Assembly: GCA_009869945.1 (NCBI GenBank)
Contig: WIXG01000055.1
Location: 124,001 to 188,000, forward strand
DNA: 64,000 nt
Source: Mesaphorura yosii
Taxonomy: Eukaryota; Arthropoda; Collembola; Poduromorpha; Tullbergiidae
Reading direction: 5' to 3'
Below are positions 25,489 to 57,134 of the stretch, piece after piece. Each line of letters begins with the position of its first letter. The stretch's first letter is position 1. The position numbers were made by a program, and so were the translations under genes. The notes under the pieces were generated by a model. The model was given only the letters and a program-made list of their open reading frames with translations. It was not told the DNA's origin and searched no databases.

Positions 25489-27019
25489 CTAATCACTCGA
25501 AAGATTACTATCCGTATCCTGTATGGAAAAGAAATTAATTATATCTCAGAACGACTAATAATTTGTAAGGTGCTATTCAAGAAGCTTTGCTTACGTTTGA
25601 TAGCCGGAATAATCTTCCCTGCGTCGTATACACCGTCGAAGCTCCGTCTTTCTCTGCCATTGTGTGTCCAGTAGCAGACTTGTAAAAAGGAGGAAACTAA
25701 CGGTTATGACAAGAAGGAGAAGAGCAGACAAGCAAGGGTTAGTTAATTGCGTCAATTGCGTGTTGGTCTCACTGTTTGTTAGTTGTATAAAGTTAGCCCA
25801 TAATTAAGAATGACAGACTCACCTCACTGTAGGCACAGTACGACGGAGGTTTACAGCTGTAGCAACTCGCACGGGATGTCTCGGAGGAGAACATAGGGCG
25901 CGCGTGAGACCCCACAGTTGCCTCGTCGAAAGATCGCACATCCGACACAGTCCTACAATAAAACAGTCAGAACCGAACGTAACTTGAGCGGCTAATTTCT
26001 ATTTTGGCTGAGTTACTTTTCGTACGGTCGAATTGGAAGGTCAGGCTCCAGCCCCGTCGACCTTCTTCTCATTCCTCCTCTCGCAGAAACTTCAGTTCCA
26101 GAAGACACCAACGCACCTGAGCACGAGAGACAGAATGACTGAAACCTGAAATGTGAACTCTTCATGATGCGATAAGCCTTAATGCGATATTTACCCGAAG
26201 ATATTCTTCTTTCTTGAAGTGATACTCTACGGGTTTTGGCCTCTTGATTTCTCTGCGAAGTCGACTGTCGACTGGAACACTCACCAGGCATCCTGGGAGG
26301 AGGCTGTGATGAAAAAATGAAAATGCAGTCAATTTACTGACGGTTGCATTCGATGAAATGGTGGCTTGGCTGATTGGCTGGCTTGAAGCCTTACCGGAAT
26401 ATGCTTGGCCCCTGGTGCAGGGTCTAAAAAGCTCATGAGTTTGCTCTCAGCTGCCGCCAAGTCCGAATTTACATCTGGACCCAGGGCCGCGCTGGACGTG
26501 TTCGGTCTCGACGAAGGACGCGACGACGATCTGATCTTTGCTCTTGGAATGACGACGGTCAAGGATCGGTCCTGCTAAACAATTTCAAACCACATGATCC
26601 TTTAGCATGAAACGTCGTCCGTTTAACGAATGCCTTAAAGGCAGCGCAGCGAGTTTCTACTAGTTGACTATCATTACCTGATCCATAACCACATTTCGCA
26701 GAGAGAAGTTCATCAGATCAGCTCCACCTCCGCGTCCACCTTGCGTGTTCTTGTTGTTGTCGGAATCAATCTGCAAAGAAGGGCGAAGGCGATTGACTTT
26801 ACGTGCCACGCCGCTGAGATACACTTCAAACAAATGCGGATCTTACCAGTAGCGAGTCTGGCGTAAATGAATGCTGCTGTTGATGATGATGGGAATGAAG
26901 ATTAGATCTCGCCGGTGGAGTGCGCGTGCCGTCACTGCTGCTCCCGCTGTCATGCATGATGGCCGCCCTGTCCAAAGTTGCGTGAGAAGTTGGACTTCTG
27001 TATCTCATAAATCGGCCAC
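25489..27019 (-). other. Cytoplasmic-tail exons of the giant gene
   Basis: Eight small exons code the tail of roughly 285 residues. It starts after the membrane helix with SGRFMRYRSPTSHATLDRAA, is rich in Ser, Arg, Pro and His (HSHHHQQQHS) and ends DTDSNLSSD. Three exons (26678-26770, 26395-26574, 25595-25678) are phase 0-0 and could be skipped without a frameshift. A Cys/Tyr/Pro patch (SCYSCKPPSYCAYSE) is the only cysteine cluster. No known domain is seen. Confidence 0.75.
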
Positions 27020-30000
27020 CTGTTTCCGTAATCAAAATTAAGCATTTGCACTAAAGTTTAACTAAAGATGAAGGCGATGACCCTTCAAACGTACTTCCTG
27101 GTCCAGTTAGAATTCGGCCTGGATTTCTCTTCTTCTTTCGACATAACAAGAATCCGCACAGCAGCACAAACAAGAAGAGCACTCCGACAATTCCAATGAT
27201 GGCAATTAGTAGGACTAAACAGATAAAGGTAAGTCAGAATCAGTTTGTCCTCTGGTGCTAAGTGCTTACAATGCATTTACAATTTAAGAACCTACTTTTC
27301 AGGTTTATGTGGCACTGCGACCCGCCATACCACCGGAAGCAGTTGCAGGCTGTTTGTCCAATTCGGTTTATGTAACAGTTTCCTTTGTAATTGCACTCAG
27401 CACAGCCAGCCATTTCTGCAAAAGTAGCAAAGGTAAATCGGTTGATTATTGATTGAGTGATTAAATTCAACAGGTATTGGAACGTGGAAGCACAAGAAAC
27501 TACAAGAGCAAATGGCGGATTGTTGTTCTCCTTCTTGACTTTGGCAAGCCCCTTTGCAGTTTGCATAATTTTATGTTCATTCATAACGCAATTTCTGAAC
27601 ATTGGTATTTTAGCCGAAAGTTAGTATCGTTTTTACTTTGTGTCCTCAGCTGTGCTGCGCGCGAATCAGGTGTTAGGACAGGTAGTACCAGTTGACAGGC
27701 TGCTGTGAAGCGTTGTACGATTCATTTTGCATACTAATTAGCACACTCACTTCATTAAACTGTCGCTTTTTCCCTTTTTAACCCAAACAAACTTCATTTG
27801 ACACACGGATGTTTCTTTATGGACACATTCAAAGCCAGCAGCATTAGTTTATTTAAGACAAGAAAGAAAGCTTCTTACCGACACAATCGCGTCCTGGTTT
27901 CTTCCGCCTGCCCCTGTCTTTAAACCCGGCCTGACACTGGCAACGGTACGAGCCAAGCAAATTAATGCAGTCAGCATTCTCATCGCAGTCGTTAAAGACG
28001 GGGATCGCACATTCATTAAAATCTGTTAAACAAAAGTTCAGAGCGTGTTAGCTGTTTAATTACTGCAATGCAGTGGTGCAATGCAATTTATGCGCAGGAA
28101 GTTTTATTTTTTTTTACCTCTCGCGCTAAAATCACTCATGTTACTCGACGAGGTAATCAGCCCCGCCTTTCCCATCGTGAAATTGGAGTTGCGGAGGGAG
28201 CGAATGAGTTGGCCTTTGATCTTGTCCAGCGTTACGTTCTTGCGTGTCTGCACGAGAAAGTCAACGTCCACTTTTGGCTCCATCATGTGCGTCTCTTCGT
28301 TGTGGACAATTCGTGGGTCGATCTTCATGACCTCCGTTCCCTGGAAATCTCGTGTGATGATAGTTGTCAGGAAGATTTTGTCGAGTGCGTCTTTCGTCAT
28401 TGTGATAAAATTCAGGTACGCGTCCGACGCATCATTCTTGAGGTCGTTGTAGTTGAATGACACACCGTCCATGTGATTTATGGCGAAATTCATCTCGTAC
28501 GTGAATGTGGCTGAGAAAGAGAGATACATTTAGTCAAAAATTCGCCGCTGAGATTTCTCATGCATTAATTGTCTTGTCTTTATGTCACTTACGTCTGCAC
28601 GGTGAATTTGACTTGACTCTCGCGTAGCCTGGCGCACAAACGCACTTCGATTTGGTACCACCCGCGTACGCTTTACACATTTGATTTCCCTGCATGCTGC
28701 AGTTGTGTGTTTGGCAGCCTGGCTCAATGATATACGGTTTAATTTTACGCTTGGGCCCAACCTCAAACGAGGATGAAGACTCTTTGGATGTGATGGAGAC
28801 GTGAGTGCTGCTGGAGTCAATGATCGGGTCGAGTGTGGTTGCTTTGGCTTGCCCAGAAGAGTCCTTCGGCCGAGTTTTTACAATTCCGACTTGACCGTGC
28901 AGCACTTTTTCGGTGTGCGAGCCCGTCGGGTCGTAATGCGCTAAGAACAGAAATACAGTACATTTTCACAATCGATCGGCAGTTTTTCTTGTCTGTCACC
29001 TTGTATTATCTTACCTTGTGTTGCCTCCGAGTAGATTGTGGACCGCACAATCGTTGGTTTGATTTCCACGCTGTTGACGAGTGTCACACTTCCGATGATT
29101 GTGCTGATGAGCGTTTGTGGTGGGACCGTGTGCGTGATGACGACTGTTTGCGTGATTGGAGCTCCTCCAAAACCCGTAGATGAAAGCACGCTCGTCTCAG
29201 TTTCTGTGAACACGTGTGTTTCCGTCTCGGTGCTCGTGACGTACCGCGTTCTCTCGGCTGTGGTGGCAATCTCGTTGTCATCCGGGCTGAGAGTGACTGT
29301 TGCGCCTGAGGAGACAATCGATGTGACGATGGGTGCTCCGCGATTGGAAGTTATAATGCCAGTGATTGTGCGCGTGGGACTGATTTTCTGCTCAGGGCTC
29401 TGGCTCTGACCACTGTTTGTGACAACAGTGATCGTACCGTTCTTGGTCACCACTTGCGTTCGAATTCCCTTCGAGGCAGCATCGATCACCTGCTCTTCCT
29501 CGGAGCTCGAGGACTCCGTGCTGGTCACCAAAACGTGCGTCCTGAGACCCGAGGGCACAGCAGTCGTCGTGCTGGTGCTGCTCGGGACCGCTTTTGTATT
29601 GAACGAGTAAGTGCCGTGCTCCTTGGAGCTACCCAGCAGGTTGGGGCGAATTGCTGGCCTGAACGTGGTTGGCTTGAACGCCTCGCTTGACTTCTGCGAG
29701 GACTGCGTGTCTTCAGCTGTGGAAATACTGAATTCGGTGCTTGTCGTAATTTTCGGCGTTGTACTAAAGAAATTGAGGCGCGTTTTGTTGTATTTAGACG
29801 GTATAACGACACGATCCTTGGATTTTGTCGTTGTGCTTGTCACGGAGGACGAGGTGCTTATAGACACATTCTCCTCACTCGCGCGTTCGTCCTCCTCCAC
29901 TTCATTGCTGCCGTCATCCTCTTCCGGTTTGCCCGTGGATGAAGACGTCGTCCGACGGTTCCAAGGCAGAAGAGCATTCGAAGCAGTCGGGTTTCTTGTT

Positions 30001-33000
30001 GGAAGGAACGGCCGCCGAGAGAAAACTGGTCGCTTCGCCGACGTGCTGACGGTACTTTCCGGGGTTGTCGAAGGCGGCGAAGCTGTGGTTGGCGGTGTTG
30101 TAAATCTCGGTCTTGTGAAGGGTCTCCTGCTTGAGAAGGGCGGGAACGGAGTCGTCTTTGTTGGTGTTGGAGAGACACTCATCGGCGTGAACCCGCCGGT
30201 CGTGCTCGTGGGTGTAATCGGCGGGGACACAGCTTCGCCTTCCTCGCTTTCGCTCGAGTGAACTCGAGTGCTAATGCGCAGTCGCGTCCTCTGAATTATG
30301 GCCGTGCGAGTATTCGTGGCCGTGGAGACGTGCTCGTTCTCCTCCTTCGGGCTGTTTGAGGCTCCAGCTGGAGTCGGTCTTGGGAGGACAGGAGCAGCGG
30401 CAGTCTGAAATCTGCCTCCAACGTAATGAACAACGGCGCTGCTTTCCCTGCTGTTACTTCCATCCTCAGCCGAATCCACAATGGAGCTTGCTAGTTCGAA
30501 CGCAATCTGTTCGGGCGAGTCTTCCTCTTCGCTGAATGTGCTCGTGCTCGTTGGACGAATGACATCCTCAGCGGAATCGAGCGTCTGGGAAGGTTCAATG
30601 TTGGCAGAAGCTGCGGCCGCCGCCTTGGAACTCTCCTGGTGATAACGGTTGTTGTGTATCATTGGCACGATGTTTGTGGCCACGATTTTGTTATCATCGT
30701 CCACACTTGCTATCGTGTGGAATGTAGGCGTCGGCCGGGCCAGAGTCGGTTTCAGAAGCTCGGCGTCTGGGCGGAGCAGATTCGGTCGTAGTCTCTGGCG
30801 AACACGATGGAACTTGGGACTGTTCGGATTTGGTCGGCCTGGCCGATCCGCTGGCGGTGGCAAGGTTGGGAGCTCGAGAACTGCTGGCTTGTGTCGAAGA
30901 CTGTCGACGGGCGGTGGCGCCATTTCTGTTTCTGGCTGCGGGAACCTGGGATCTTTGTACTCATGAATTTCGACAGACGTCGACGTGTCTGAGGACGAAG
31001 GGTTTTTACTTGTTTCCACAACCAGCGTGCCTGCCTTTGGTGGAAATGGTTTCGGTCTCCGAATTCGCTTTCTTTGTCCGGGTCCCAGCGGGCGCGGTCC
31101 GTTCAGATTGCTCTGTTCGAAGGAGCCGCTCCCGTCGTGTTCAACGCTGGTGTGAGTCACTGGTCTCGGTCGCACTGCTTCGATACTGTTCTCGATTTCT
31201 GCTTTGATCTGATTATGAAAGTCATGCAGATGGTCGTTGGTTCGCAACGGCTCCACCTGCTTGAGGACTTCATTCTCGAGATCGTTTTCTTCCGGCAGGC
31301 CACCGTGTTCCTCCGAGTCGTGCCCTTCCAGCGACTGTTCGTGTTCGTGGGAGTTGGGAAGTGTTGTCTGAGGGTGGTGTGCGCCTATCGGACGGCGAAT
31401 GTTTGAAGGATGCTGATTCTGTTCGCCAGATCCCGCATGCACGCCATGTTGATGTTGCGGTTGGAGTGGTCCCCTGAATGGCCGTTGTTGCTGTCCACCA
31501 GAATGCTCCGGTCTTCCAACTGGTTGTGGTCGCCTCACCAGCTCCGGTGGTATGATCGGTCTCCTAAGTTGATAGTTCTGATTCAAGTTGCTGTTTTCAG
31601 CAGCCGGATTCAGTGGAATCGGCCTGATTTTGTTGAAGGTCGACTCCGGATTAAGCCCAGGCTGTGGTCTCGCGTTGTTTATTCCGTGGTCAGGCTGCGG
31701 CTTGCGTACAATGTTCAGGTGGCCGACGTTTCCATTTCCGCCCGACGGTCGCTGAGGAGGAGACTCGCCATGCGGTGGAGGATGGGGACCATCCGGCCTT
31801 GGTCGCAGTGGGCGCCTGAACAGGTTGGTAATGGCATCGAACGGTCCCGATGGGCGTGGTGGCTGTTGATTCGACTGGCCCTGACCCTGGCCTGGACTTG
31901 GTGGACTCTGTGGATAAGGAGGCTGATGTGGCGGTGGCATTGGCCGAAGAATTGGTCGCCTTCCATTTTGCACATCCACATTGCCATTGGCGTGACCTAA
32001 ATGACCTTGTGGTTGTGGTCTCAGAGGTGGACGCGGCCCAGCTTCATGAGGCTGTGGCGGCGGTGGGCGCAACCTGGTCATCGGGTACCCGGGCGGACCC
32101 AGCTCGAAGGTTTCATTCGTATCCTCCTCTTCAGTGTGAGTGCTTGCATGCTGCTGCGGCTGAGGTCTTTGTGTTGGCGTCAGCATCAGTGGCCGTTTTT
32201 GCTGTTTCGTCTCGTGAGTTTTCACAATGTCACTTCCCGTGCTTCCGTTCTGGAGTTCTGATGCATCGTCGTCCTCATTCGCTTCTTGGTCTTCCAGCGA
32301 GTAGAAAGGCTTCTTGAATCCCTGACTGCCATCGCTGCCTGTCTGCGAATTGCTCGAGCCAATCCCTGCCGAGGATTCTTCTTCGTACGAACCTGGAATG
32401 AGGGCCAGCACCGGATGTTGGTGCTGGTGACCTTGCTGTCCTCCTCTGACTGGCCCTTTTGCAAATTCTGGTCTCTTGTGAATCTCCACATTTTTGAGTT
32501 TAATGTTCTCAATTCCCTCTTCATCGTCATAAAATGAGTTCGCGGTCGCTGGGTGCGTGTTCGAGGCAGAAGACAGAAGGCCACCCGGTCCGCGTACACC
32601 CGGCGCCGGTCGTCGTACGGGCGACTCGTTCGGCGGTCGACGGAACAAATTTGGCCTGAACGTGGTTGGTTGCAAAATATTCCTGAACGTCGTCGGTTGT
32701 TGCAGATCAACAATGTTTGGCGAGACGCTCGACTCCGCGTTTTGGGTTGGAAAAATATCGTGCCACACCAAATCCTTGTGGTCGTTCACGCTCGTGGTAG
32801 ATGAGATTCCGTGAGCGTGACCAAGGCTAGTGAAATTTTCACGGAATCCAAAATTTGCAAAGGGACGAAAGGTAGTGCCGCCGGCTCCGGCCCAGAAATC
32901 ATCACCTTCCTTGCCCATCGAGGAAAAGAAGCCGTCGGGGAGCGTGAATCCTTTCAGGAGCTCGTTTTCGTCAATGTTTTCTTCGTCGAGCTCCTGCTCG

Positions 33001-36000
33001 TGTGAGTTGTGAGGCCGATGCCTGACCGGGCCGACTGTTGAGCTTGGCGACGGAAGCGGGGACTTGATTACTTGGTTAGTGTTCGGATCGATGATTGAAA
33101 CATTGTCCTCCGAGCCACCGACCATTTTGTCGAAGGATCCTTCACCGTGACTGTGGGGTTGGGGATTCCCGACGAAGTTGCCCAGATGGAAGCCGCTGGC
33201 GTTGCCACCGAAATGATTTCGGTCAAATATGTCAGAGATGGTTGGAGACACCATGAAACCACCGGATTTCATGAAATGATTGTCAGCGCTGTGTTCATCA
33301 GACTCGCTGTTGCTGTTTTGGTGCTGCTGCGCTGGTCTCTCTGTGGTTGCTGGCGTTGATGGTGTGCGTATGAAAGTGGGATGAAGACGCGTGGTCTTTG
33401 GAGTCGTCGGTTGTGGCGGAATTTCGTTTATGATAAGTTTCTGTGGCGGTGGTCGGTGCGAGGAAGCGGTGAAAGGAGGCATGACCGGATGAGGGCTGCC
33501 GCTGACCTCGTTTTCAACCTCATTCGTGCCCTCCTCCGGCAACTCGGCCATGGGTGGCGGATCGTACGTCTCATGCACGTAGAAAACTGTCGTAGGGCTT
33601 ACGTGATGAGGTGCGATGTGAGGGGTTGGAGCAAAGAATCCAGGCAGCAGAGGAGGTGGCAGCGGACCCTCTTGACTCTGACTTTGCTGCTCGCCCGACT
33701 GCTCCTGCTGTACCATGAAAGGCGGAGGCCGTGCAAATTGCGGGTACGACTGTGTGTTTTCATGCCCGTGCATCGTCTCAATTGGCCAGGGCGGGATTTG
33801 TTGCATTCCTGGAAGCAAAACGGCGTGCCCTTGACTTTGATGCCCTGGGGCCACAATTCCTGTACTCAAATGCTGCCTGAAAATGTTGCCGTCCTCGAAA
33901 ATTGGAGGAGGTCGACGAGAGGTTGAGACGAAGTCAAATGGAATGAGCGACGGCGACGGCGGTGGCTGCGGAAGGTGCTGGTGTTGGTTCTGTGCTGCTC
34001 CGTTGTAATGCGAGGGCGGCCTGAACTGTGCTGTCGTCGGTGGTTCGGTCTCGAGGATCGGTCTGAAGGGCTGATGGTCAATGTTTGTGGCGGGGATCTG
34101 CGGAATGTGCACGTGGTTAAACTCAGGCGTTGGGTTCATTTGTTGATGATGCCGCATAAACTGCTCGTGCGCTCCTCGCAATGGCTGCTCCTCGCTCCTT
34201 GTCAACTCTTGCTGGTGCTGGTGTTGCGGAGTATTGTGTTGACCGAACGCAGGAATTGATCCCTGCGGTTGTTGTGCTTGCGAGGGTCGATTATGCAGTC
34301 TTGTGAGGATCCCCTGACCAGTTTGCATCGGATGCCGCATCGGAAGCTGGGGACCAATCAACTTGTGTTCGTGCTCGTGCTCGTCGCTGCCCTCGCCTTG
34401 GTGCCCCTGCACAGGAATCCTTTCAGTCATTACCACATCAAACGTGTTTGGAAGATGCACAGGATGATGCAGCCCAATTTCATTTGACCCAGCCATGTCA
34501 AAGTGCTTGTGCTCCTCGCTATTTTGGTTGTGACCCTTTGAACTCGGCTCTTCATAACTGTTGACAAACTTATCCTCGTTCTCGACGGTATGAAACATTG
34601 AATTGTGAGCCGCAGACGGCATCAGCAGATTGGGCCGTTGATTTTGAGTGATGTCAAAAGAATGTGGCAATTGAGGCCCGTGTTCTTCGGAGGAGGTGCC
34701 ACTTTGAGACGGCGGTGGACCTTTTTCGAAGGGAATTCTATTCCTTGGCGGAAACAGCGCGCTGTGAACCTCGTTCGAAGCTTCAGGAATTGGCGAGGAA
34801 TGCTGGCTCGGCAAATGGGGCCTTGGTCGGACGGCTGTTGAGGGCCGGTTAATTTGTTCCATTTCGGTGGGCGGTGGCACTCGTAGAAGGTTAAGATTTG
34901 GTGGGATTTGGTCGTCGTGCGAGTGGATTCCGAGTTCATTCGAGTGAGCATATGCAATTGACTTATTTTCTTCTGCTTCTTCGTCTTCGTCCCGATGCTG
35001 CTGCTGTAGGTGCGGCGGAGGTGGTGGTGGCCGTGCGACCGGAACCAGCACGGTGCTTGGCCGCTGGTACGGCTCTTGGCTCCGTGGGGGCTGTCTGAAG
35101 AATGTCGGCTCTCTCTTCTTTTCGCCGCTGTTCCTGAAGACATTATGAAAGGTTGGCGTACGATTCACTGGGCCCGCGAGGACCGGAGTCCCAGAAACCA
35201 CTTTTACAACGTGCGAAGTTGGGAGGCGCGACTCAGTCCGGAGGCCCGTGTTCGCGTTCGCGTTTGCATTGTTGTTGATTGAATAAATATTTGGTTGTCT
35301 GTCATTTGGCGGCGTAAAACTGTTTTGATTCTGAGGAAAGAAAGGCCGAGTGTTGCTGGTCGCTGCGCTCTGAAACTGTTCTTGGTTGGCGTGTGACATG
35401 GGGCGTCTCGGAATGTTGTCGTTCGGATGACGGAGTAAATGTAGAGGCCGCTTCTGCTGCTGGTGGAACTGGCCAACAGGAATCACATTCGGCTCCTTTT
35501 GGTACGGGACGATGGTTCCGATGCCCTCGTGCGTGGAAGACGGGTATCGCGCAGGGAAAAGGGGCTTCTCTTGCTTGTAGACTGTGCCGTACTGTCCTTG
35601 AGTGTCGTTTCTCGCAATGACGGGTGCGAATCCATGCTTGATGTAGCCTGCCATTGAGCTCAGGAGCGGACTCAATTTTGTCAACGTGCTTGCGCCCAGC
35701 CCACCAAGTCCAATTGCGCCCAGGTTGAGCAGCGGCTTCCAGTTGATGGTCGTTCCGCCTGTGCTGACGACCGATCCTCCGCCTCCGCCGGTGTTGACCG
35801 AGGGCCCGTCGTTCATTACAGTGATACCGGGACCGGAGAACATCGTGGGTGGTCTCCGTTGAGAATTGTGCTCGAACCCCTCCTGCTCGTGCTCGTCGTG
35901 TTTATTTGTCTGATTCTTCTTCTTGTTCCCTTTCTTGTTCTTCTTGGTTTTGGTCTTCTTCTTCTTCTGCCCTGTGTCCACGTCCGAGACATCGCTCACT

Positions 36001-45000: not shown

Positions 45001-48000
45001 AGGATTTTCCTTCTTCCTCCTCTTTGCTTTCTTGAGGTGTGGTCGGAACCTCTTCGGTCGTGTCTTCAGAACTCTCAATGTCAACAGTTCCAGTCGGCTG
45101 TACTGTTGTGAATTCTTCCGTCTTGGATGGGTTGATGATGACTCTGCTCGTGCTTTCCAGGATTTGTGCGTACTGGTTCTCAATAATCGTTCCCAGCACA
45201 CTTGTCGTGTAGAATGTGGTGGTCTTGTCGTTCTCAACGGCTGATCCGTCGGTCACACGCAGAATGCCCGTTTTGAACTGATTTTGGTCGGTGTACTCCG
45301 AGTTAACTTGCACGGTGGTCGTACTTTGAACGATTTGAGCGTACGTGTTGTCAATCACAGTTCCATACGTCTTTGTGGTAAAGAATGTGATTGTGTTGTT
45401 GTTTTCACCTTCAAGAACCTTGCCTTCGTCGGAACTTATGAGTCCCGTGGACTTGAGGACAGCATCGGGCAAGTAGTTGGTTTCCATTCCCACAGAAATT
45501 GATTGCGAGGCTGCAGTCGGTGCGATGATGATTTTTGACGTACTTTCGAGAACTTGAGCGTAAATTCCGTCAATGAAGGTGCCTGGAAAAGGCAGCACAC
45601 GAGAATTAGCATGACTGATGGCGTCGGAAATTTCGGAACTGATCGGAATGCTTACCAAACACGTCGGTTGAGAAGACAGTCGTTGTTGCTCCGTCCACTT
45701 CCGAGTTGACAACAGTCGAGAGCAAGCCGACTGGCAAGTCATAATCGTGGTCTTCCAGCGCAGGAGTTGTGCTGTCAACGAGCTGCTGCTCGATCGGTGC
45801 TGAGCCAATGGCTCGTGGAGTCTGGTCATCTGCTACCTCGGAAGCAGGCCCCAAGTCGGCCACTTGCGTGGGTTCGATTGTTCCCGTCACCAAATTCGTA
45901 ACTGTCTCGAATCTGCTATTGACGATTGTGTCGTCCCCAATGTAAGACGTCGTATAATATCTGAAGTTATTTTAACATAAAACGAATTGTACAACGGTTC
46001 CATTCACTGTTTCAAAGTTGTAGGTAGTTTGTCTAGCTTACGTGTAAGTGGTAAAGTAAGTTGTCAGCTCAACTTCGGCAAATATTTCGCTCGGTTCCAC
46101 GTCGGCGACGAGGTCCTTGTTTTGCTTTCCTTCTCGACCCGTCTTTGCAGGCGAGGCTGACACGGCAGTCGTCGTCGGCTCACTCAGTGCTTCGTAAGTG
46201 GAAGTTTTGGTTGGAGCCACATCGTCGATGCCTGGAGTCACAACGTTGGACACGGTCTCTTCACGACTGGTCACGACAGGAGTCTTGTCCTTGAACGAAG
46301 TTGTCCTGCAATGTTAAAAAATGTATTTGTGTTCATGGAGAAAGGAAAATTCAGACTTGTGAGAAAAAGCACGTTTGTAAGTATTGTGACTGTACTTACC
46401 AGTACGTATAAGTCGTGAAATACGTGATCGGGTAAACGGGCAGTACTGGCTGGTCCGTGGCTGAGGAATCCGGATCCTGCACGGCTTCACTGGCAACATT
46501 TGTGACAGTCTCCAAGCGACTGGATACGGTGGACGTTCCGTGCTTATAGAAAGCTGAAAATAACACGGAAGCAAAAACTTACGCTGAGCATCAAAACTTT
46601 TGTGGGTTAATGGCTTACTCGTGAAAAATGTAAACGTCGTGAAGTACGTCTTCAGCGCTGGCGTGGCCTGGACAATCTCATTCTCGTCCACTTCCTCGTC
46701 GCTGCTCTTATCCTCATCGTCAAATTGCTCGTGTTCGTTGTACACGGACTTTTCAGTCGTTCCCTCAGATCCTTCGAGCTCGAAGCCGGTTGTGGCAGTC
46801 TCCTCAGCAGTTGCCTGACTCGTTTCACTCAGGTGGCTTCCAACTTCATTCAAGTCATCGTCAGACGCCTCGAGTGGTGTCTTGGATGCTGTGGCAGCAG
46901 TACGCCCAGCAATCTTGGTTGGCTCAACAGCTGGCAAGACCGCCGACTCAGGCTTCTTGACGAGGCCAGAGCGGATTGTCGACCCAGCCGCCACCACATT
47001 TGTGTACGTGTCGAGAGAGCTCTTGTGGTACGTGGTCCCGTCCTTGAATATGGAGCTGAGGTACGTGTAGGTTGTGTAGAAAGTCGTTTCGCCAACGTGG
47101 TGCTTTGGTGGTTCGTCGCCATCAGCCATGGATGCAGTTGCAGTGGGCTCAATTTGGTCAGTGGTGGCTGGCGAAGGAGCGATTGTGTTGTAGACGGTGG
47201 ACCGAGTCACCGTCGGTACGATGTTTGTGATGACTTCCGTTCTGGTCTTGGTCGAAGCGTCAATTCCGTTGAAAAGTGTTGTGAAGTACGTCAAACTCGT
47301 GTAAAATGTCTTCAGGATCGTTTGCTCTACAACTGACGACGGGATGAGGGTTGAGCTCTGCTCTGGCTCGACGATCGCGACGGAGGAGGATGGCGTAGCC
47401 GCAGTCGCAACAGAGGATTTGGACCTGTCTGCGAAGAGTGGCGATCGTGGCAGTGTTGAGTAGGAGGAAGAAGGTCTAAACTTCTTGCTGGCCGTGAACT
47501 TGCCAGACTGCGAACTTCGACTTGGAGACGCGTACGATTTAGACTTGCTCGGTTCAATCGACGAGAATGGTTGCACGGAGCTTGTCGGAATAATTTCCGA
47601 GCTCGAAGGCTGGTCTGAAAGTAAGGTGGTTAGAGTGACCACATTGCTGACGACCTCCTCGCGTGAAGCCAGGCTGGTTGTTTGCCCGGTAAAGAAAGTT
47701 GTCACCTGAAATCAGATGGATTGTTAGAAAATAAGAAAAGGACTACAGTTTGTTCTCAGAGCCTGAACTTACGTATGTGTACGTGGTGAAGAATGTTTTG
47801 TAGATGAGCTGAGTGCTTGTTGGCGAAATGTGCTCCTCGCCAATCGATTTAAGTTCGTCCTCCTCTTCATCATCCTCAACAGCGGTGGCAGTGGCCGACG
47901 TTTCAACTGGCTTCGCTGCGACTGTGGACGTTGGGAGGATGTTGCTGAACGTCTTCTTCACGAATCCGACCGCAGTCGACGTGATTTCACGTGAAATGAC

Positions 48001-51000
48001 GCTCGTCACGGTCTCCTCATTCTCTGTCGGGATGAAGAAGGTCGTGTAGTACGTGTACGTGCGGTAGACTGTCGTCGGAAGGGTTCTGGTAACAAAGATC
48101 GTTTGTTCCTCTTCGTCCGCCGCAGGCGACGCAGACACCCTGTCCTTGTCAGCGACGTCGGAAATAATTTGTCCCTTCACCGGGCGATTTCCGCCAACTT
48201 TCCTGCCTTCAATTTCGTTCTGCGATTCATTATCCACATTGTCAGCAGATTTTGGAGTTGTGGTTCTGGACTCCGAGTCTTCGATTAGTGGTGTGGTTGA
48301 GTCCGAGTTGCTCGACTCCACATTGGCACTCACGATGCTTTCGGTGGTGGTCACGCTGACTTCTGCCCGGTCGTAGTTGGCCGGGGTCGTGCTGGACTCT
48401 TCGTCACTGGACTCCGTGGTCGTTGTGACTTCGTAACTGAAGACTGCAGGTTTCGCGGTTGACGAAGACCCGGAAGAGAATTTGGCAACTGGCGTTGGTT
48501 TGATTTTAGAGTACGTGGGTGATGGTGGAGTGAAAATCGATCCAGCTGCTGATGGAGACACCGCTTCCGAACCCTCCACCGTTTTGCTTGGAATCAAGAA
48601 GAACACCGTTGATGTGCTTTTGATTATCTGTGCGTAGCTCGTGTCGATGTACGTGCCGAAAATCAGGCTTGTAAACAAGGTCGTGGTGCTATCCCGCACA
48701 ATTGAGCCTCCGATGGACGTCACCAGCCCGGTCGGATTCACTTTGTCCGTTTGGTAGATGGCAGTCGTGGCTGTTGTTAAGTGACCATTTTTCGAAACGA
48801 CGGGTGAGGTCAAAAGGGGAGCAGTGGAGGACGTGGCTGTTGGGGAGACGACTCCACTCACGCTTGCATCGGACACGGTCTTCAGCAGCAACTTCGGAGT
48901 GTATTTTGGTCTCGGAGAGAAGAGCGAGCTGCGCTTGTCAGAAGGACTCTGACTGCTACTGCCTGGCGGAATCGGCGTCGCTTCAACGGAGAATGAGGGA
49001 GTCGCAGATGGGTTGATGTCGCCAATAAGACGCGTCTGAACTCCGCTCTGTTGCTGAAGGATCTTGGAGTTGCGGTGGTCAAGATTCGTGAAAATTGTCT
49101 GCCTTCCAGAGTATACAATCGTTGTTTCACTGCCCACCGACGCCGGTTTAATCTCTTCGGATGCTGACACAGCTGATCCGAAGGTTGAGCTGCCGAGGTA
49201 CTTTGGAGTGAAGTCTTTCTTTGGAGCACGACGACTCGAGTTCTCTTTCCCTGCGCTCTTTTCCTTCGCTGGCGGAGCGGTCGTGCCCACTGCGTCATCA
49301 GCGTCACTGCGTTCTGTCGTGGTGCTGGTCACTCGTGTGGTCGTGGGGACGTTGTTCGTGGTGTATTGAACCGTGGGCTGAATGGAAGTTGAAGACGGTG
49401 AGATTGTCTTGCTGGTAGCCAAGTCCTCAATCATTCTTGTTCTGGGCATGAATACAATCACCGTGTTTCCGACCGTCGTCGTGAAGTCAGCGAATCCGAC
49501 GTACGTCACCGTCGCGTGGCCAGTCGAGGCTGCGCTTTGCAGGTCGAGAGAGTCAACTTCATTCCCTGCTTCGATGCTGGAGCCCGTAGCTCGCCCGTTT
49601 GACGACTTAGGGTTCCTGAAGGAGCCTGGCTGGCCCTTTTGAGTGCGTGGTCCAGTGCCTGGCACATTGTAGTAGGAATTGACCTTGTTATTGTTGCTGT
49701 TGTTGTTGTTCGCCATCGCTGCGGAGGCCGGGCGTTGAAAGACGGGCACACTTTTGCGTGATGAACTCGAAGAACTGGACGATGAAACTGACTCTCCTCC
49801 CTTGGGCACCAGTTTCACTTGGGCACTCTGGGTCGGGGCCGACGCCATGTCTTCCTGGTTCGGGTCGTATTGCCCAACTGTGAACGTTGGCAACGTCAAA
49901 GCCTCAGCCTTGCTTGGCTTCGGGAGTCCGGATGAAGCAGGGAATTTTCTGCCGGTTGGAACTTCATTCTCAACGTTGACAGCAGATGATCCCTTTGCTT
50001 TTGATGACGAAGACGAAGAGAAAGACTTGGTCTTCTTGGAACCTGCAGTCAGCGACGCGGCAGTCGGGTCCTTTTCCAGCGTGAGTGTAATCGCGTCAAT
50101 CTTCGGTCCAATGATTGGAGTCTGTTTCGTGGCTCCGTCAACTGAGATGAACTCACTGCTGTAGGGCAGATCGGACTCTGAAGATTCAATCTCAATCATG
50201 ACGCCTTCCATGACTTCTCCGTCGATTGAGCTATCGACCGTAGCCCGGTTGTTGGTTGCTGGCACAATAACTTTGAGGTTCTTCGACATGTCGACGATCA
50301 CGCTGTTCTTCTGCGGCCCGTTCTCGACGATGATGGTTTGCTGTGGCTGCGGAGTTCCTGCGATGGTCGCAGACGGAGACAGGACCGTGTTGCCAAAGAA
50401 GAACAGGAAGGTCTTCGAGTTCTGGACGTACGTGCCCGTAAACACGTTGTAGGTCGTCTCGTCACCACCGACTGGATTCGTGTGCACAAAGTTTCCGTGG
50501 GTGCCCGTCACTCGAACCTCATTCTCCTTCACGTTGTTTAGCCGCAGAGCGCGAAGACGGTTTTCGTTCTCATCCTCGACGAGTCCGAGTTCGGCGACAA
50601 TGTCGGCACCGCCATTGCTGCTCTTTTTTGTGATGAAGTTCCCACTCAGCTCTTGCGGCAGGAAGGGATGTGCAGTTGGCTCCGGTTGCGACACGGACTT
50701 AGCTGGCACGATCGGTGCAATGATGACGGTTTCTAGCTTGCCATTGTTCACGACTTGGAGCGTGGTTCTGAACGATTCTTCGGTCAACACGGGAGTGGCG
50801 TAAATGAGCCCAGCGTCGGAGGCAGTGGCCAGTTGAAGTGAAGGTGGTTTGGTGCCGTCAATGGCGTCGGTGTACCAGGGCGGGTAGTGGACGTTGGAGT
50901 AGCTGGACACGACCTGGGCGTACGTGCCGTCGATGTACGTGCGATAAAAGTCGGTCGTGATCGCCGTGGTGGCGTAGCCGTGCACTTCGGTCGAGACGGT

Positions 51001-54000
51001 GGACGCAATGAACCCCGTTGGTCGGATCATCATGTGCTCTCCGTTGGGAAGGTCGGTTGGCACGGCGTGGTAGATTCTGGAGCTGGTCGTCTGAATACGT
51101 GCGTACGTGTTCTTGATGTAGGTCGCCAGCAGCTTCGTGATATACTCCGTCGTTGTGCCCGACGTGATGAAGGCCCCCATAGTTGTTGTGAGGAGTCCAA
51201 CGGGACGAGTCTGCAGCTGACCACGACCATCTTCGTAGAAGGTCGTCGTAGCTCCATTGATAACCACTTTTTTCAGTTCTGGATTTTGTCGGAAGACAAA
51301 AGGATAGAGACAGAGAAGAAAAGGAAGACAATAATTGCATTAGTGACTGACTGTAAACTTGATGGAAATTAAACGAATTGGGTTTAAAGAAGTGCAATCG
51401 AACTCGAAGGGTAAGTTTAGGTTAATTAAGAGTGTGGAAGGAGCGAATTCCGATTTTATTGTGTATCTGTGGTTGTCACGCTGAAAGTCATTTGCGAAGG
51501 TTCAAAATCGTACAAAGAGAAGGATGGAAAATGCCATACGCACAACTGAAGCTAAGAGTACAGAGATGAGAAGAAGATAAGATAAGGTTGACTTGACATG
51601 GTGAAGTATGGACGGTGAAAGTAGCGAGGCAGAATGGCAGTGACAGCAAGAAGACAAGTTATCATGCTCAGAGTACAATAAATTACATGCAGAAATGTGT
51701 GCGTTTTCGTAGTTACATCTGTAATTCGGAAGCCAACTCCAAAGTCCGATGGCTGTATGTAAAGAAAGTGCATGCTTATTACGAAAAGATGAAGAATTGA
51801 CAATTAAATTGTCCACTACGTTGCTGTTCGAAAAACAAAGGAAAAGAGAAAATCCCTCGGATAGACAAGACACAAGAAGGTAACGTGTGTAATTGGGCAA
51901 GTGTGCAATTATGGAGTGAATTGTTTCAGGAGCTGCGTCAGCGCACGACGAGTAATTATTTCTCCTTTTAGTCACTCAATTATTGCAATGACATCTTTCA
52001 AATTGCAGCCTCATCGTCTAATATATAATAGCGGCATAATTACACCAAAGGTGCGGCGTAACTCGTAACGTAAAACGTAACTGGCTAAGCTTTTGTTTTT
52101 TTGTTTCGCTTTTGTGAGTGTGAAAGTTTTGACCATCGCGAGACGCGCCTCCAAAATTGCAATTGCGACTTCTGGCAGAGTTACGAAACGGCAAAAGCGA
52201 ATGGATAATGCAATAATCTTCTTCAGTTCCTCTTCACCGTCGGGTCGTCAATACCAAACTGAGTATGCTTGTCAGCGTGCCATCATCGGCTAATCCGCAG
52301 TAGGAAGTGCAGGCGAATCGGCATGCGAAATTGTGTAACACTCACACAGTGACCAAATTTGTTCATGCTCGGCTCGCGGATTATCGTCGAAATATTGCTA
52401 TTGCGCTTCCATTTGCATTTTGGAAGTAGGCGCAGGCCGCTCTAAGTGCAAATGCAAATTCTTGAGAGAAAAACAAGTTTCAATGCAAGAGCCCAAATGG
52501 CAAAATGGGTAAATCGTAATTTTTTTCTGCAACTCTTCTTCCTTTCGTCTCCACCCTCGACGGCTTTGGCACGACAGGCTCGAATGATGAATGACGAATC
52601 TCTTGAAAAAGTGAGGAATGCCATGCCATGCCATTCTCATTACAAAGAGCATTAGCATTATGATACGACTGACTGGCAGTGGCAGCAATGGTCAAGCACG
52701 GTACGGCTCGATAACAACAGCAGCAGCGTGAGCATTTATTGTTGCAACTTTCACGAAATTCCGCTTAAAACAAATAGACCAACCATCCTTCAGTGCTTTG
52801 CGTGCGTGCGTGCGTTCAAGATTCATTGACCATTGAGTCGCAAATCGAAAATTGAAGTCGATCGTGCATCGCATGCAAGTCTGCCGCCTGCTTCTGCTTG
52901 GCCTAATAACATGCAAATGCGGACGGACACTCAAACACGTGAACTTTGTGTTGCACTTTCCATGTCAAAGTTCAAGAAACTAAATCGCTCCACTCCCTCC
53001 GGACACAAACGTGCACGCTGCCTCAAAGTACTAGCAGACTTCGATTTGCGAGCATGTGTTTTGTGCTTTCTATTCTTCACACAATACACGAGGCTCTTGA
53101 GAAAAAGTGCAATAATTATTCCAATCTGTACGAGGCAACAATAACTAATTATATTAATACGTATTTGTAGCACCACACATTGTTGTACGTGTACAACGAC
53201 TCATATGAAAGTCTCAATGGCCAAGTTATGGAAATTATCACTTTGTATGAGCGAATTGAATGCATAACACATAATTGCACGTTACTCGCCCAGAATTTGT
53301 TGCCAATTGCCATTTGTTTGCTGTGCCTTGCCTTGTCTTGCGCACAAACTGCACTGGGCACGTACGCGATTTATTACATTGCAACTTTTACGAGTTTAAG
53401 GAGATAGTAATAGGAGATAAGTATTGAATTTCAATATTTCAATGGCCCGAGATCAGAGCAGAAAAGTTTCTACGCGCGTAATTCCACTTGGAAAGGCGTC
53501 AAGACGATTTTCTATGTACTAAACCGATTAATTACTACGTATCACTGAATTATTGTGTCGAGTACGTGCGCATTTCAATTTGCAGGTACTTAACATGGGA
53601 AAGAGAAAAGAGAGTTGTTGATAATTTTGCGCAAAACATGTGAAAGAATAATATTTCATGTTTGAGAACAATGCAGGCATTATCGCCGATGCACGAGAGT
53701 TCATTACATTATTCAGTCTCAGTTTTCCAATGACTCTTCCAATAAATCCACTTGCTTCGTCGCGGCAAGAAGTAAATAAAAGAAAACTTTCAAATCCACG
53801 TAATTCTCGAGCACAAAGCTCGTAATTTTTAATGAATGGACTCGATGAAAGTTTCGAGATGTCTTTTTTGCAATCCATTTACTCTTCTGCTTTGTGACGA
53901 CGACGCGACGAGGCGATTCAATGGAATTTCGGTGAGCACACACAGCACAAAAGCCGATGCTTAATTATGTTTCTGAGCACCCAAAGCAGAAGTAGCAACA

Positions 54001-57000
54001 CGGTTTATTAAAAACAAAGATTAAGAAATATGAACATTGTACGAGAACGTGAACAAGTCGCGGCAGAGTCGAGTCGATTCGAATATTAGCATGAATTGAG
54101 GTCAGGCGTCGTGAAAAGGAAGAGTGATCAGCAGAGGAGATGAGATGATGATTTTGAACAAGCAGAGATTAATGCACGGTTTGCTTGCTACTTGTCAAAG
54201 GAAAGGCAATAAATAATCGCCCTTAAAACCAAATTTGAATTCATGAACTCTGCTAACTGCATGATGAATTCCTGCCTGGTCTGCAGTCTGCGGTCAATAA
54301 TTACACTCGAACGTGTGAAACGCGAAACTCAAGCCTTTGACGCGTCGAGTAGGAAGAAGAATGGTAAACGAACTTATAAATCAACATTAATTTTGTACAG
54401 CAGCTCAGGTGCACTCGACCATGTTCAAACTCCCACGATTTCTCATTTGCACTGTCTAAACCCTGTCGCGGTGGTCACAGAAAAATGCTGCTTATTCGCA
54501 TTCTTTATTTCCGAATTGAGAATGCTAATTCTGGGATTGCTGTCTTCGAGATACCACAAACCACTTGGAAGCATTTATCCAAATGTAATGTTTGTCCACC
54601 AAATCTCAAGATTTGACGGGAAACTTGATTAGGGTGAATTAAGAGCTTGCCTTGAGCCAAGTAACAACCTCTTACATGTATAAATGTTTTTCCAGCTTGA
54701 CGGCCTATTTTACACGAATGTGTAAAAGTATTTACATCCTTAACTCTGCAGGCAGATGCAATCATGATAATGGTCAAGAAGTTGAAAACCTGAAGAGTGG
54801 AGTGTGCCAAGCACAAAAAGGTCAGAGTTTATAAATTATTCAGGAAAGTTCTCGCCTCGTAGCGTAGCGTCATTGTGAGAATTGGGTAAAAAGGAAATGT
54901 GGCTTGCTTTTTCCTGATTGACGAGTTTATAATCATTTTATGAGGCATCATTTCGCATGCGTAAATACACATGCATATGCAATGCATACAGCTTAAGTAT
55001 TGTTTAGGTTTGTGCGCTACGCAAATAAGTGTGCCCCAATTAAGAATATGAATACAGTGTATTGTCGCTGACCAGCGCATCACTGCACTATCCTGACTTC
55101 AATTATAATTACACATGGTCTGGCCATGTTGTGGTGCATGTAATTGCGCGAAATGTGAATTGCAGACGGATGAATGCGCGACTTTAATATATAGCGACGA
55201 GAGCAACTTTTGACCATCGATTCGGTCATCGTCGTTGGCTCGTCATTGTCAATCCGACACCCAAATGTGCCTCGTGTCTCCAATTCCATTCAACTCTACT
55301 TTCAATTTGTCCTTAATTTATTACTTTGGCTCACCTACATTCATTCGCATCAATGAACGAAACAATTTCTTACAAAGGCATCCCATCAGTCAGCCATCAT
55401 AATGTATGCTATGATAATAATGCAGATTGGAGGTGGAAGTGTGCGATGCCAAAATTCACTTGCCCCTGCTATTGTTATGCAGGCAGTCCGCACGAATTGC
55501 AACTTTTTGTAGAAAAATGCAACCCACAAATGGTAAATTAGTAAATGACAAGATCATGATGATCATGAAGCTAAAGCGGTTAAAGGTACACAACAAAAAT
55601 TACAATGTTTCATTGTCACCCCAGTGTCGCTCACAAGCGATGCGTATTCAATGAGTTGGCCCGCATTTCCATTCATTAGGCGCGTTATTTATGTTTTGTA
55701 GTCAAATTATCAACTTTTCCTTTCAGACTGCGCGAACGCTCGTGGACAGACATTCGTCTTCGTAACTCTGCCCATTCAGAATGTGAAAATAGAAACGCGG
55801 AATGGACAACTAAATGACATTGAGGAAGATACTTTTACCAAATTAGCAAATGACAAATTATCACAATTCAGTTTGGAAGGCGCTTGCATGGCAGATATTT
55901 CACACTCACAAAGCCCCATTCTTTGCTCGATTCCCTAGCCTGCTGCACTTGAATTTAAATTTATGCAAATTGCTTACGCGTTGTTCGATTGCTTTCTCTC
56001 AATCGCGAATTGCAATGACGATTGCATTCGAGCGCAGAAAGTGAGCGCAGCGCATGATTGACGCTCGTTCGAAACTGAATCTGGTCTGATACTCACCTGA
56101 TAAAGCGGCCCGCTTGAATCTGATGTTCTCAGACGTCGTATTCTTGATTGCACATTTCGATGGATCCCATTGACCTAGAAATGAGCAGAGAAGAAATTCA
56201 GGATGAGAAAAATAGAAAAGGAGATGCATACGATGATGGAGTTTTTGCTAGCAATACGGCGATGACGATAATGATCTTCGCCACATTGTAATGAGGATGT
56301 CTGCCGGTTGCAGCTGCACAATGCACATTGGAGAGTCAGCGATCATCAATAACAAAAGCAGAGTAAATGAGACGTGAAGCCCAAAGCAAAAATCGCTATC
56401 CGCGAACAAATTACTATTTTTAACATGTGCCTGCTTGAATCGCGATTTTGCAGCAGTGCGTGCGTGAATACAGCGTACCTGCGTTACGCTGCGACCGAGA
56501 CACACATTCAGCAATTCCTTGACCGTCCTTTGTCAGAACGGGCAAGACAAACAATACAGGAAAATGCGAAATGCGCTATGGGCTTGCTTGCATTGCAACA
56601 AATTGCATTGATCTTGATGATATTGATCAACAGCAGATGCAGAATCGAATTCAAGCAACTCAGAGCCGTGCCATGATGATAATGACAGGAAAGAAAGTTG
56701 AATTAGAATAGAAAATCGAAAATCAGGCTTGCAGGCGAATAGAGAATTTTTAAGACCAAATCATGGGCCAATTCCTCATTACTTGGCACGCAGTATGGGA
56801 TTTTTTTTACCAAACTTAGGGCGTTAAACCAATTTCGAGCTTCTGGAATCTTGAATGTTTTGATGGCGATTGATTAATACGGAAATTGATCCCATTAATT
56901 AATGCATTGGCAATTGACAGGTTGTGGCTGGCGTGGTCGGCTCTTGTTTTAAGCACAGACTAATTAATTGGATCCTAAAGCAAAGCGAATGTGAAGGCCA

Positions 57001-57134
57001 TTGAAGTCAAGCGCTTTTTGCATTCTCACCTTCATCTGATCCATCAACGCAGTCTTGAACTCCATCCTTAACTAGTGCTTTGTCTATACAGCGTGGAATT
57101 CCACAGAGGCACTTGTGCTGCGACTCTCCGCATT
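25489..57134 (-). CDS. Giant LDLa-mucin-EGF-SEA-EGF-EGF transmembrane protein (MUA-3/MUP-4-like layout), 5' end not found
   Basis: Twenty-six exons join with consistent phases, high to low: 57134-57030, 56174-56097, 51278-47773, 47705-46619, 46553-46400, 46305-46042, 45960-45656, 45582-43828, 43744-41399, 40036-39824, 39778-39615, 39507-39364, 39254-29015, 28940-28593, 28510-28118, 28022-27879, 27415-27296, 27214-27095, 27019-26847, 26770-26678, 26574-26395, 26303-26195, 26116-26017, 25952-25823, 25678-25595, 25518-25489. The frame is about 7,460 aa without the missing N-terminus and signal peptide. Domain order is LDLa, Ser/Thr/Pro-rich repeats, EGF, SEA, EGF, EGF, one TM, tail. C. elegans MUA-3 and MUP-4 combine LDLa, EGF and SEA domains and hold epidermis to cuticle; a similar apical-matrix role is inferred. 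The junction 41399 to 40036 is the weak point. Confidence 0.75.
27095..27214 (-). other. Membrane-helix exon of the giant gene
   Basis: Phase 1-1 exon of 120 nt. It codes one hydrophobic helix (IAIIGIVGVLFLFVLLCGF) followed by the stop-transfer CRKKKRNPGR. This sets the topology: EGF/SEA side outside, tail inside. Confidence 0.9.
27296..28022 (-). other. Two EGF-like domain exons of the giant gene
   Basis: Exon 28022-27879 codes a calcium-binding-type EGF domain (DFNECAIPVF, DENADCINLLGSYRCQC, GRDCV). Exon 27415-27296 codes a second, juxtamembrane EGF-like domain (CAECNYKGNCYIN, TACNCFRWYGGSQC). Both are single exons in phase 1-1, as expected of shuffled EGF modules. Confidence 0.88.
28118..28510 (-). 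other. SEA-domain exon of the giant gene
   Basis: Phase 1-1 exon of 393 nt coding about 130 residues with the SEA pattern: an N-terminal strand FTYEMNFAINHMDGVSF, a helix with DAYLNFITMTKDALDKIF and the strand KVDVDFLVQT. The usual autocleavage signal (Gly-Ser-Val-Val-Val or similar) before the third strand is not seen, so self-cleavage is not predicted. Confidence 0.8.
28593..28940 (-). other. EGF-like exon preceding the SEA domain of the giant gene
   Basis: Phase 1-1 exon. About 65 residues of Ser/Lys-rich linker lead into a six-cysteine EGF-like module (CQTHNCSMQGNQMC, SKCVCAPGYARV, NSPCR). It abuts the SEA exon directly. Confidence 0.8.
29015..39254 (-). other. Single 10,240-nt exon of the giant gene
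   Basis: One uninterrupted frame of 3,413 codons, entered at an AG acceptor in phase 0 and left at GTAAGA in phase 1. The first third has four more YFTTYTYF-type modules (for example KTYFTTYTYFTSILGEG near 38.2 kb), then acidic and Ser/Thr-rich sequence. The middle (about 31-36 kb) is Pro/His/Gln/Asn-rich (RRPILRPMPPPHQPPYP, and repeated RPNL and TTFRP words) with a lysine run near 35.9 kb. The last part is Thr/Ser-rich mucin-like. It is extracellular by topology. Plus-strand open frames within it are shadows of its biased composition. Confidence 0.88.
39364..40036 (-). other. Three exons leading into the 10-kb exon of the giant gene
   Basis: Exon 40036-39824 enters in phase 1 (GGILVRSPLILNGTNNSHN, with NGT and NNS glycosylation sites). 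Exon 39778-39615 codes NLTNNVHAREGNKTTYAGYA. Exon 39507-39364 codes a YFTTYTY-type module (LLTTFTYFSTILDE, VSSREE) whose second half (TISNVVTQ) begins the 10-kb exon. Acceptors and donors are good; only the partner upstream of 40036 is uncertain. Confidence 0.7.
40037..41240. other. Long AT-rich intron or intergenic gap inside the giant locus
   Basis: No exon is seen on either strand. Several TTTATT words give minus-strand AATAAA (for example near 40926) and could end a transcript that stops at 41241. The intron would be about 1.36 kb if the chain continues from 41399 to 40036, against mostly 65-260 nt for nearby introns. Confidence 0.45.
41241..43744 (-). other. Exon with alternative ending: stop at 41241 or donor near 41398
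   Basis: The frame runs from the acceptor at 43744 (GLIRPTAGTT) for 833 codons to a TGA at 41241 (...SRSELDNY). It holds Asp/Tyr and Ser/Arg-rich sequence, polyglutamine stretches (QQQQQQSFQQQ) and degenerate repeat modules. To reach the next exon, the donor GAAG|GTGGAG at 41398 gives the right phase (1) but is a weak site. The better-looking donor TTA|GTGAGC (near 41341) has the wrong phase. So this may be the C-terminus of a secreted form. Confidence 0.6.
43828..51278 (-). other. Repeat-module exons of the giant gene
   Basis: Exons 51278-47773 and 45582-43828, with the small exons between them, carry two repeated modules. Type B reads roughly TGL...TTTxFxTxxxGTYIDxxYAQIxxSTSxVxxxP: GTYIDTSYAQIIKSTSTVF, GTFIDGIYAQVLESTSKII, GTVIDNTYAQIVQSTTTVQ, GTIIENQYAQILESTSRVI, and degenerate copies at the N-terminal end. 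Type A reads KTYFTTYTYFTxxxxGxxxxxSRxExVSNVVT. Ser/Thr/Pro linkers separate them. I recall insect proteins of unknown function with similar modules but could not check a family name. Confidence 0.75.
45656..47705 (-). other. Run of small exons each split inside a type-A module
   Basis: Exons 47705-46619, 46553-46400, 46305-46042 and 45960-45656. Each junction falls within a few codons after the YFTTYTY core: TTYTY|VTTFF (phase 0), TFTFFT|TFYKHG (phase 1), TTYTYW|TTSFK (phase 2), TTYT|YYTTSY (phase 2). The second half of each module then reads SRxExVxNV. Confidence 0.75.
51279..56096 (-). other. 4.8-kb intron of the giant gene
   Basis: Separates the LDLa-side exons from the repeat-module exons; phases match across it (phase 1). 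AT-rich, with four exact POU octamers (52411, 52452, 52911, 55963). I see no gene or mobile element. Open frames on both strands are short and without domains. Confidence 0.6.
56097..57134 (-). other. LDLa-domain exons of the giant gene
   Basis: Exon 57134-57030 codes five of the six cysteines of an LDL-receptor class A domain (ECGESQHKCLCGIPRC, then DCVDGSDE with the calcium-binding acidic residues). Exon 56174-56097 supplies the sixth (QWDPSKCAI) and then RFKRAALS, a furin-type site. Both exons are phase 1-1. They are separated by an 855-nt intron with no gene in it. The domain must be preceded by a signal peptide that I did not find in the window. Confidence 0.85.

Follow-up and report, generated by a model that had tools for sequence, protein, structure and literature searches.

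To our knowledge, little is known outside the ZP proteins about the attachment of the arthropod epidermis, through the apical membrane, to its cuticle. MUA-3 and MUP-4 of C. elegans carry LDLa and SEA domains in addition to a long EGF array, MUC17-type mucins have a SEA/EGF base beside the membrane, and Drosophila Dumpy has a ZP domain together with DPY modules that bear cysteines. MUA-3 and MUP-4 are described, in passages of two papers, as large transmembrane proteins with matrilin-like VWA and EGF domains, thought to link the cuticle to hemidesmosomes (PMC11304992, PMC7712855). MUC17 is presented in part of a third paper as a protein of 4,493 residues with an ectodomain rich in proline, threonine and serine (PTS), which forms a 1-µm apical glycocalyx and has a class I PDZ-binding end at its C-terminus (PMC12172626), and Dumpy in an excerpt of a fourth as a giant matrix protein with many EGF and DPY modules (PMC2930355). 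Here we describe a minus-strand gene of Mesaphorura yosii, contained for the most part in a window of 64,000 nucleotides of contig WIXG01000055.1 (C55:124001-188000, where C55 stands for this contig; positions without a prefix follow the numbering of the window). The gene spans at least 57134 to a stop codon at 25489 and is predicted to encode a giant member of DUF4758, a named family with a blank function, with the architecture signal peptide-LDLa-stalk-EGF-SEA-EGF-EGF-transmembrane segment.

In general build the nearest of the described systems is MUC17, with which the predicted protein shares a giant serine/threonine (S/T)-rich stalk, an EGF base with a SEA-like domain, one transmembrane segment and a cytoplasmic tail. 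It differs by its DUF4758 modules and its LDLa head, by having no tandem array beyond one of 27 bp, and by lacking the Gly-Ser pair that is the motif of SEA autoproteolysis. Its C-terminus reads LSSD, in contrast to the class I PDZ-binding end reported for MUC17. Among the traits of SEA-type transmembrane mucins, a long stalk rich in serine, threonine and proline was found here; tandem repeats and the Gly-Ser pair were not. With MUA-3 and MUP-4 the predicted protein has in common that it is a large transmembrane protein with EGF and LDLa domains, although its SEA domain is sub-threshold; instead of their VWA domains and long EGF array it has three EGF-type cysteine sextets and DUF4758. The VWA model gave 12 matches in profile searches of the genome (93.0 Mb in 1,127 contigs), none of them on this contig. 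Membership of the MUA-3/MUP-4 group is rejected because the exons scanned contain neither a VWA domain nor an EGF array. Of the comparison with these proteins drawn in a first-pass annotation of the locus, the idea of a transmembrane link survives, and the protein could, by analogy, work in a MUA-3/MUP-4-like manner without belonging to that group. Dumpy is likewise a giant matrix protein encoded by a many-exon gene, but it has many EGF and DPY modules and a ZP domain, whereas three EGFs and no ZP match were found in the exons scanned here, and its cysteine-bearing DPY modules have no counterpart in the cysteine-free stalk described below. No study of this architecture appeared among the literature matches listed, which came from open-licence papers.

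Gene model and DUF4758 modules

The coding sequence, minus-strand throughout, comprises 25 exons in the window, which form two chains of nine (57134-41340) and sixteen (40036-25489). Twenty-four introns have GT-AG ends and matching phases, 23 of them in the window and one following a candidate signal-peptide exon outside it. Stop-to-stop frames of 3,447, 1,198, 843, 673 and 465 codons lie inside the gene, far above the chance expectation, and the largest exon measures 10,240 bp. The two halves encode 3,256 and ~4,275 residues, roughly 7,530 before whatever joins them is added, in close agreement with the ~7,500 residues proposed in the first-pass annotation. The closure of reading phases that had been claimed over 26 exons was confirmed within each chain but not across 41.34-40.04 kb.

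The repeat modules of the ectodomain, left without a name in the first-pass annotation, were identified as Pfam PF15950 (DUF4758), with E = 5e-56 on the spliced protein. Iterated profiles resolved 12 type-A copies of ~34 residues, seven in the upstream and five in the downstream half, and six type-B copies of ~54 residues, all upstream. When spliced, the region from A7 through B4 and B5 to B6 scored 189 bits with DUF4758 over three stretches, the best of which covers positions 1-129 of the profile, and the downstream cluster scored 40.5 bits, both regions thus exceeding the curated cut-off of 27 bits. In the upstream half, a large exon (47773-51278) contains B1-B3, A1 and the start of A2 as well as S/T-rich stalk, and scored 65 bits. 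The exons that follow it carry the remainder of A2, A3, A4 and the start of A5 (46619-47705, 41.4 bits), the remainder of A5 and the start of A6 (46400-46553, alone without a Pfam match), the remainder of A6 and the start of A7 (46042-46305; 26.6 bits, slightly under the cut-off), the remainder of A7 and the start of B4 (45656-45960, 68.5 bits alone), and the remainder of B4, B5 and B6, which leads into a stalk rich in serine, threonine and arginine (43828-45582, 79 bits). In the downstream half, splice phases and module profiles place most of A8 in one exon (39364-39507), and the 10,240-bp exon (29015-39254) holds the end of A8 and A9-A12 before passing into a stalk that is rich first in proline, glutamine, histidine and asparagine (P/Q/H/N) and then in S/T. 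All 8 DUF4758 matches reported in the genome scan fall at this locus; the scan proceeded exon by exon with the best candidates only and did not pick up the downstream cluster, and further weak copies may exist elsewhere in the genome.

To see whether types A and B are a single repeat, we compared a profile of ten A copies, the two with insertions being omitted, with one of five B copies, the sixth of which spans an intron; this gave a probability of 5% (E = 0.0076). AlphaFold2 modelled the type-B module, from five sibling rows only, as three long beta strands, with a best predicted local distance difference test (pLDDT) score of 81 and a predicted template modelling score of 0.51; the other four models reached pLDDT values of 53.5-74.9. 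The model had no structural match in the PDB at E <= 0.001 (best 0.05), and a PDB sequence search returned nothing for DUF4758 up to E = 10. The viral-contig scan revealed no relative, NCBIfam matched neither the SEA-like exon nor one DUF4758 stretch, Rfam had 0 matches in the window, and DUF4758 was named in no paper of the open-licence literature searched.

Together, the A and B modules account for 749 of ~7,530 residues, about 10%, and most of the predicted chain length is low-complexity stalk. No cysteine occurs between residues 79 and 6943, a run of 6,863 model positions that includes ten placeholder X, and, the signal peptide aside, all extracellular cysteines sit in the LDLa domain or the three EGFs. 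The upstream half contains 12.9% serine, 14.4% threonine and 6.6% proline (S and T together 27%). Along the stalk the composition is S/T-rich upstream, P/Q/H/N-rich at residues ~4750-6250 and S/T-rich again near residues 6500-6750. Over the 31.6 kb of the gene, Tandem Repeats Finder (TRF) detected a single array, of 27 bp. Since this array stands alone and the modules are dispersed and diverged, no growth by tandem expansion is visible, and tandem-repeat expansion as the origin of the length is unsupported by TRF. The earlier description of the ectodomain as mucin repeats was accordingly only partly right, failing with respect to tandem repeats, and the view that the ectodomain grew through repeat expansion was not supported, the modules making up so small a part of the length.

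Probable signal peptide, membrane base and tail

A candidate first exon lies outside the window at C55:203286-203178, with 22 kb between it and the LDLa exon downstream. It starts with ATG, codes for MWWWTHRPTHNGAVLTLSLLFVVLVICSALEDSVQK and is closed by a strong donor of matching phase. This was the sole signal-exon match on the gene strand within 26.9 kb (the rest of the window plus 20 kb of flank), at a score level at which 40 Markov shuffles averaged 0.0 matches, and the six weaker look-alikes are all on the opposite strand. Nothing gene-like was seen in the intervening 22 kb, the longest listed frame on either strand having 168 codons. We consider this likely to be the signal-peptide exon of the gene. 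If it is correct, the protein is secretory, a property that the earlier model could not show.

Along the gene, the domain order is LDLa, three EGF-type cysteine sextets with a SEA-like exon after the first, and one transmembrane segment. The LDLa exon (57030-57134; phase 1 in, phase 1 out) scored 30.4 bits with Pfam Ldl_recept_a against a cut-off of 24.1, and 22.1 bits in spliced context. Its sixth cysteine is encoded in the next exon (56097-56174), which supports the splice between the two; the same exon contains the furin-type site RFKR↓AALS. EGF1 (28593-28940) was recognized by six cysteines with the spacing 4-7-10-1-12 and has weak factor VII EGF matches in the PDB (E about 0.5); Pfam EGF models did not call it in the spliced tail. 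EGF2 (27879-28022) is of the calcium-binding type and matched Pfam EGF_CA with 39 bits, and EGF3 (27296-27415) has six cysteines, with Notch EGF pairs of the PDB aligning across it. A PDB sequence search with the tail of the protein gave 48 matches, over the EGF segments. A transmembrane segment and a basic juxtamembrane stretch were read from the next exon (27095-27214), and splice phases join the remainder of the cytoplasmic tail through eight exons to the stop codon (25489-27019). The cytoplasmic tail has 314 residues, with one PPxY motif.

The exon between EGF1 and EGF2 (28118-28510), which encodes no cysteine, scored 19.4 bits with Pfam SEA when searched alone (E = 0.0012), 15.0 bits in the spliced tail and 19.1 bits in a third context, all below the Pfam cut-off of 26.4, and none of nine shuffled versions of the exon matched SEA. 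Its placement among EGFs beside the membrane makes it likely that this exon encodes a SEA domain. The exon has no Gly-Ser dipeptide; one GT is present, off the expected hairpin position by hand alignment. Owing to the missing Gly-Ser, classical SEA autoproteolysis is probably not to be expected here. Elsewhere in the genome, the scan reported its sole SEA match at C2:484896-485072, with 40.4 bits, above the Pfam cut-off. Beyond the domains named and EGF-type models overlapping EGF2, no VWA, ZP or other domain exceeded the Pfam cut-off in the exons scanned, the 41.3-40.0 kb gap excluded. Taken together, the order of domains proposed in the first-pass annotation stands, as do the LDLa domain, the EGFs and the transmembrane segment. 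When its segments were checked against profiles, LDLa and EGF2 were recovered, SEA stayed sub-threshold and EGF1, defined by its cysteine spacing, went uncalled.

Continuity across 41.3-40.0 kb

The last exon of the upstream chain (41241-43744) is open to a TGA at 41241 and contains the furin-type site RVKR↓SVPS; its strong coding signal ends near 41340. There follows an AT-rich stretch with low coding signal (40037-41340), across which no well-scored splice path joins both sides, and the downstream chain resumes with an exon whose first base is uncertain (39615-40036, acceptor score -1.3). Between 41340 and 40036, negative coding signal prevails over ~1.2 kb, interrupted by minor positive patches around 41260-41230, 41140 and 40150. 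Splice paths across 41.34-40.04 kb were allowed up to two intermediate exons. In all 25 best listed paths the starting donor scored below 1.7 and the ending acceptor below 0.5, that is, below the 23 other introns of the window, on a scale that is rough and not independent, having been trained on the same 23 introns, with one acceptor entered 2 bases off. Single sites in or near the normal range are present at 41645 (donor, 1.6) and 39897 (acceptor, 1.4), and the use of either skips well-scoring coding sequence. Within the gap, a strong acceptor (6.0) and a strong donor (4.9) enclose a minus-strand stretch at 41157-40911 that lacks an ATG and is interrupted by stops in all three frames; it might be a non-coding exon or an alternative promoter.

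The locus might instead yield two products. One would be a secreted LDLa-DUF4758 protein that stops with the TGA at 41241, the other a membrane protein carrying the second DUF4758 cluster, the EGFs, SEA and the transmembrane segment; they could stem from two tandem genes or be two isoforms with the signal exon in common. Such an arrangement would fit the poor sites at both ends of every one of the 25 paths, the loss of coding signal, and the presence of polyadenylation-type hexamers 3' of the TGA (AATAAA at 40930 and 40485, ATTAAA at 40456 and 40069). These four hexamers compare with a shuffle mean of 1.7, and 30 of 500 shuffles reach four, so the excess is slight. The gap, however, shows no start or signal peptide for the downstream half: none of 11 ATG-started frames of at least 12 codons in 41300-39200 combines a strong hydrophobic core with a donor of positive score and correct phase, which leaves the downstream half without a visible start of its own there. 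Furthermore, type-A modules flank the gap on both sides, and the cysteine-free stalk is common to both halves. Two separate products are somewhat unlikely in our judgment. The missing downstream start or signal peptide, the A modules on both sides and the shared cysteine-free stalk make it fairly probable that one transcript spans 41.3-40.0 kb and unites the LDLa and the SEA/transmembrane sides.

Predicted role at the apical surface

The signal peptide, the membrane-proximal EGF-SEA-EGF-EGF cassette and the single transmembrane segment support the prediction of a surface protein whose ectodomain is very long. We propose, with a probability of roughly one half, that the gene encodes a single-pass, signal-peptide-bearing DUF4758 surface protein that serves as a flexible apical tether or glycocalyx stalk on a cuticle-making epithelium. 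The LDLa head, which furin might trim at RFKR, would be carried on a cysteine-free stalk of ~6,900 residues, first S/T-rich and then P/Q/H-rich and probably O-glycosylated, in which the DUF4758 modules, mostly grouped in two clusters, would provide sites for binding or self-association. At the membrane, a compact base would consist of one EGF, a SEA-like domain that probably does not cleave, and two further EGFs, and the PPxY of the tail would provide a WW-binding-type motif. Fully extended, at 0.34-0.36 nm per residue, a stalk of 6,900 residues would have a reach of ~2.4 µm, and the protein would tie the membrane to new apical matrix or maintain a defined gap. The sequence itself establishes the order of the domains, the exon structure of each half, the DUF4758 identity, and the lack of stalk cysteines and of the Gly-Ser pair; we infer O-glycosylation, furin use, apical location, cuticle binding and a single transcript across 41.3-40.0 kb.

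Sequence hardly distinguishes a tether from a plain glycocalyx, and we favour a tether on account of the folded-looking modules, the seemingly uncleavable SEA-like base and a genome rich in cuticle proteins. Chitin_bind_4, the cuticle-protein domain whose abundance marks arthropods, had 66 matches in the genome, and this count, taken by itself, makes the arthropod origin assumed at first pass likely. On the same contig, this domain matched twice outside the window (C55:77416-82174). A membrane mucin that forms only a protective glycocalyx, for instance in gut, trachea or gland lumen, and neither binds cuticle nor bears load, would account for the high S/T content of the upstream half (27%) and for an EGF-SEA-EGF-transmembrane base, which resembles that of MUC17-type mucins. 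Yet the DUF4758 clusters differ from plain PTS sequence, one B module being predicted as a three-stranded beta sheet (pLDDT 81 in the best of five models), P/Q/H-rich sequence takes the place of S/T-rich sequence over a long part of the stalk, TRF found but one short array, and the SEA-like exon lacks the Gly-Ser pair. A purely protective mucin is unlikely in our assessment.

Several observations weigh against an apical tether or stalk of the kind proposed. In addition to the poor splice sites and the hexamers at the junction and the sub-threshold SEA scores, AlphaFold2 modelled the SEA-like exon, from a single sequence, with a pLDDT of 35, and no chitin-binding or other cuticle-binding domain was found by Pfam in the exons scanned. 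The ectodomain contains five furin-type sites, whereas shuffles averaged 1.3, with five or more in 3 of 500, one site each being located directly after LDLa, near the 41.3-40.0 kb junction and inside EGF2; these could cut the stalk, which would speak against a continuous tether. Finally, Pfam describes DUF4758 as 'Putative sperm flagellar membrane protein', which points to sperm and not to cuticle. A gonad or sperm surface protein, to which this description and the damselfly '63 kDa sperm flagellar membrane protein' genes reported as up in males in part of one paper (PMC5131402), if these are DUF4758 proteins, would lead, is very improbable, given that the family name is probably a transferred annotation; the fall of a whitefly gene of sperm-flagellar annotation on fungal treatment, as stated in an excerpt of another (PMC9727895), says little either way.

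Two other minus-strand open frames of the window lie beyond the stop codon of the gene. The frame at 20179-20742 has a weak match to the serpin C-terminus (20.6 bits, cut-off 27) and may belong to a neighbouring gene as one of its exons. The frame at 11440-12435 comprises 332 codons, is rich in proline and serine and had no Pfam match at E <= 0.01.

As a broader and quite doubtful extension of the tether model, DUF4758 might define a class of megadalton apical tethers in arthropods that is related neither to MUA-3/MUP-4 nor to ZP anchors. In such a tether, beta modules at two places of the cysteine-free stalk would anchor it in matrix layers, an uncleavable SEA base would bear load, and furin cleavage or an end at 41241 would free the protein for moulting. 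For the family itself, the predicted gene gives the functionally blank DUF4758 a concrete architecture, composed of a signal peptide, LDLa, a stalk, EGF-SEA-EGF-EGF and one transmembrane segment. Even if it forms only a glycocalyx, the protein would be among the largest membrane-mucin-like proteins known to us. If the tether is true, cuticle or tube-lumen detachment would be expected on knockdown.

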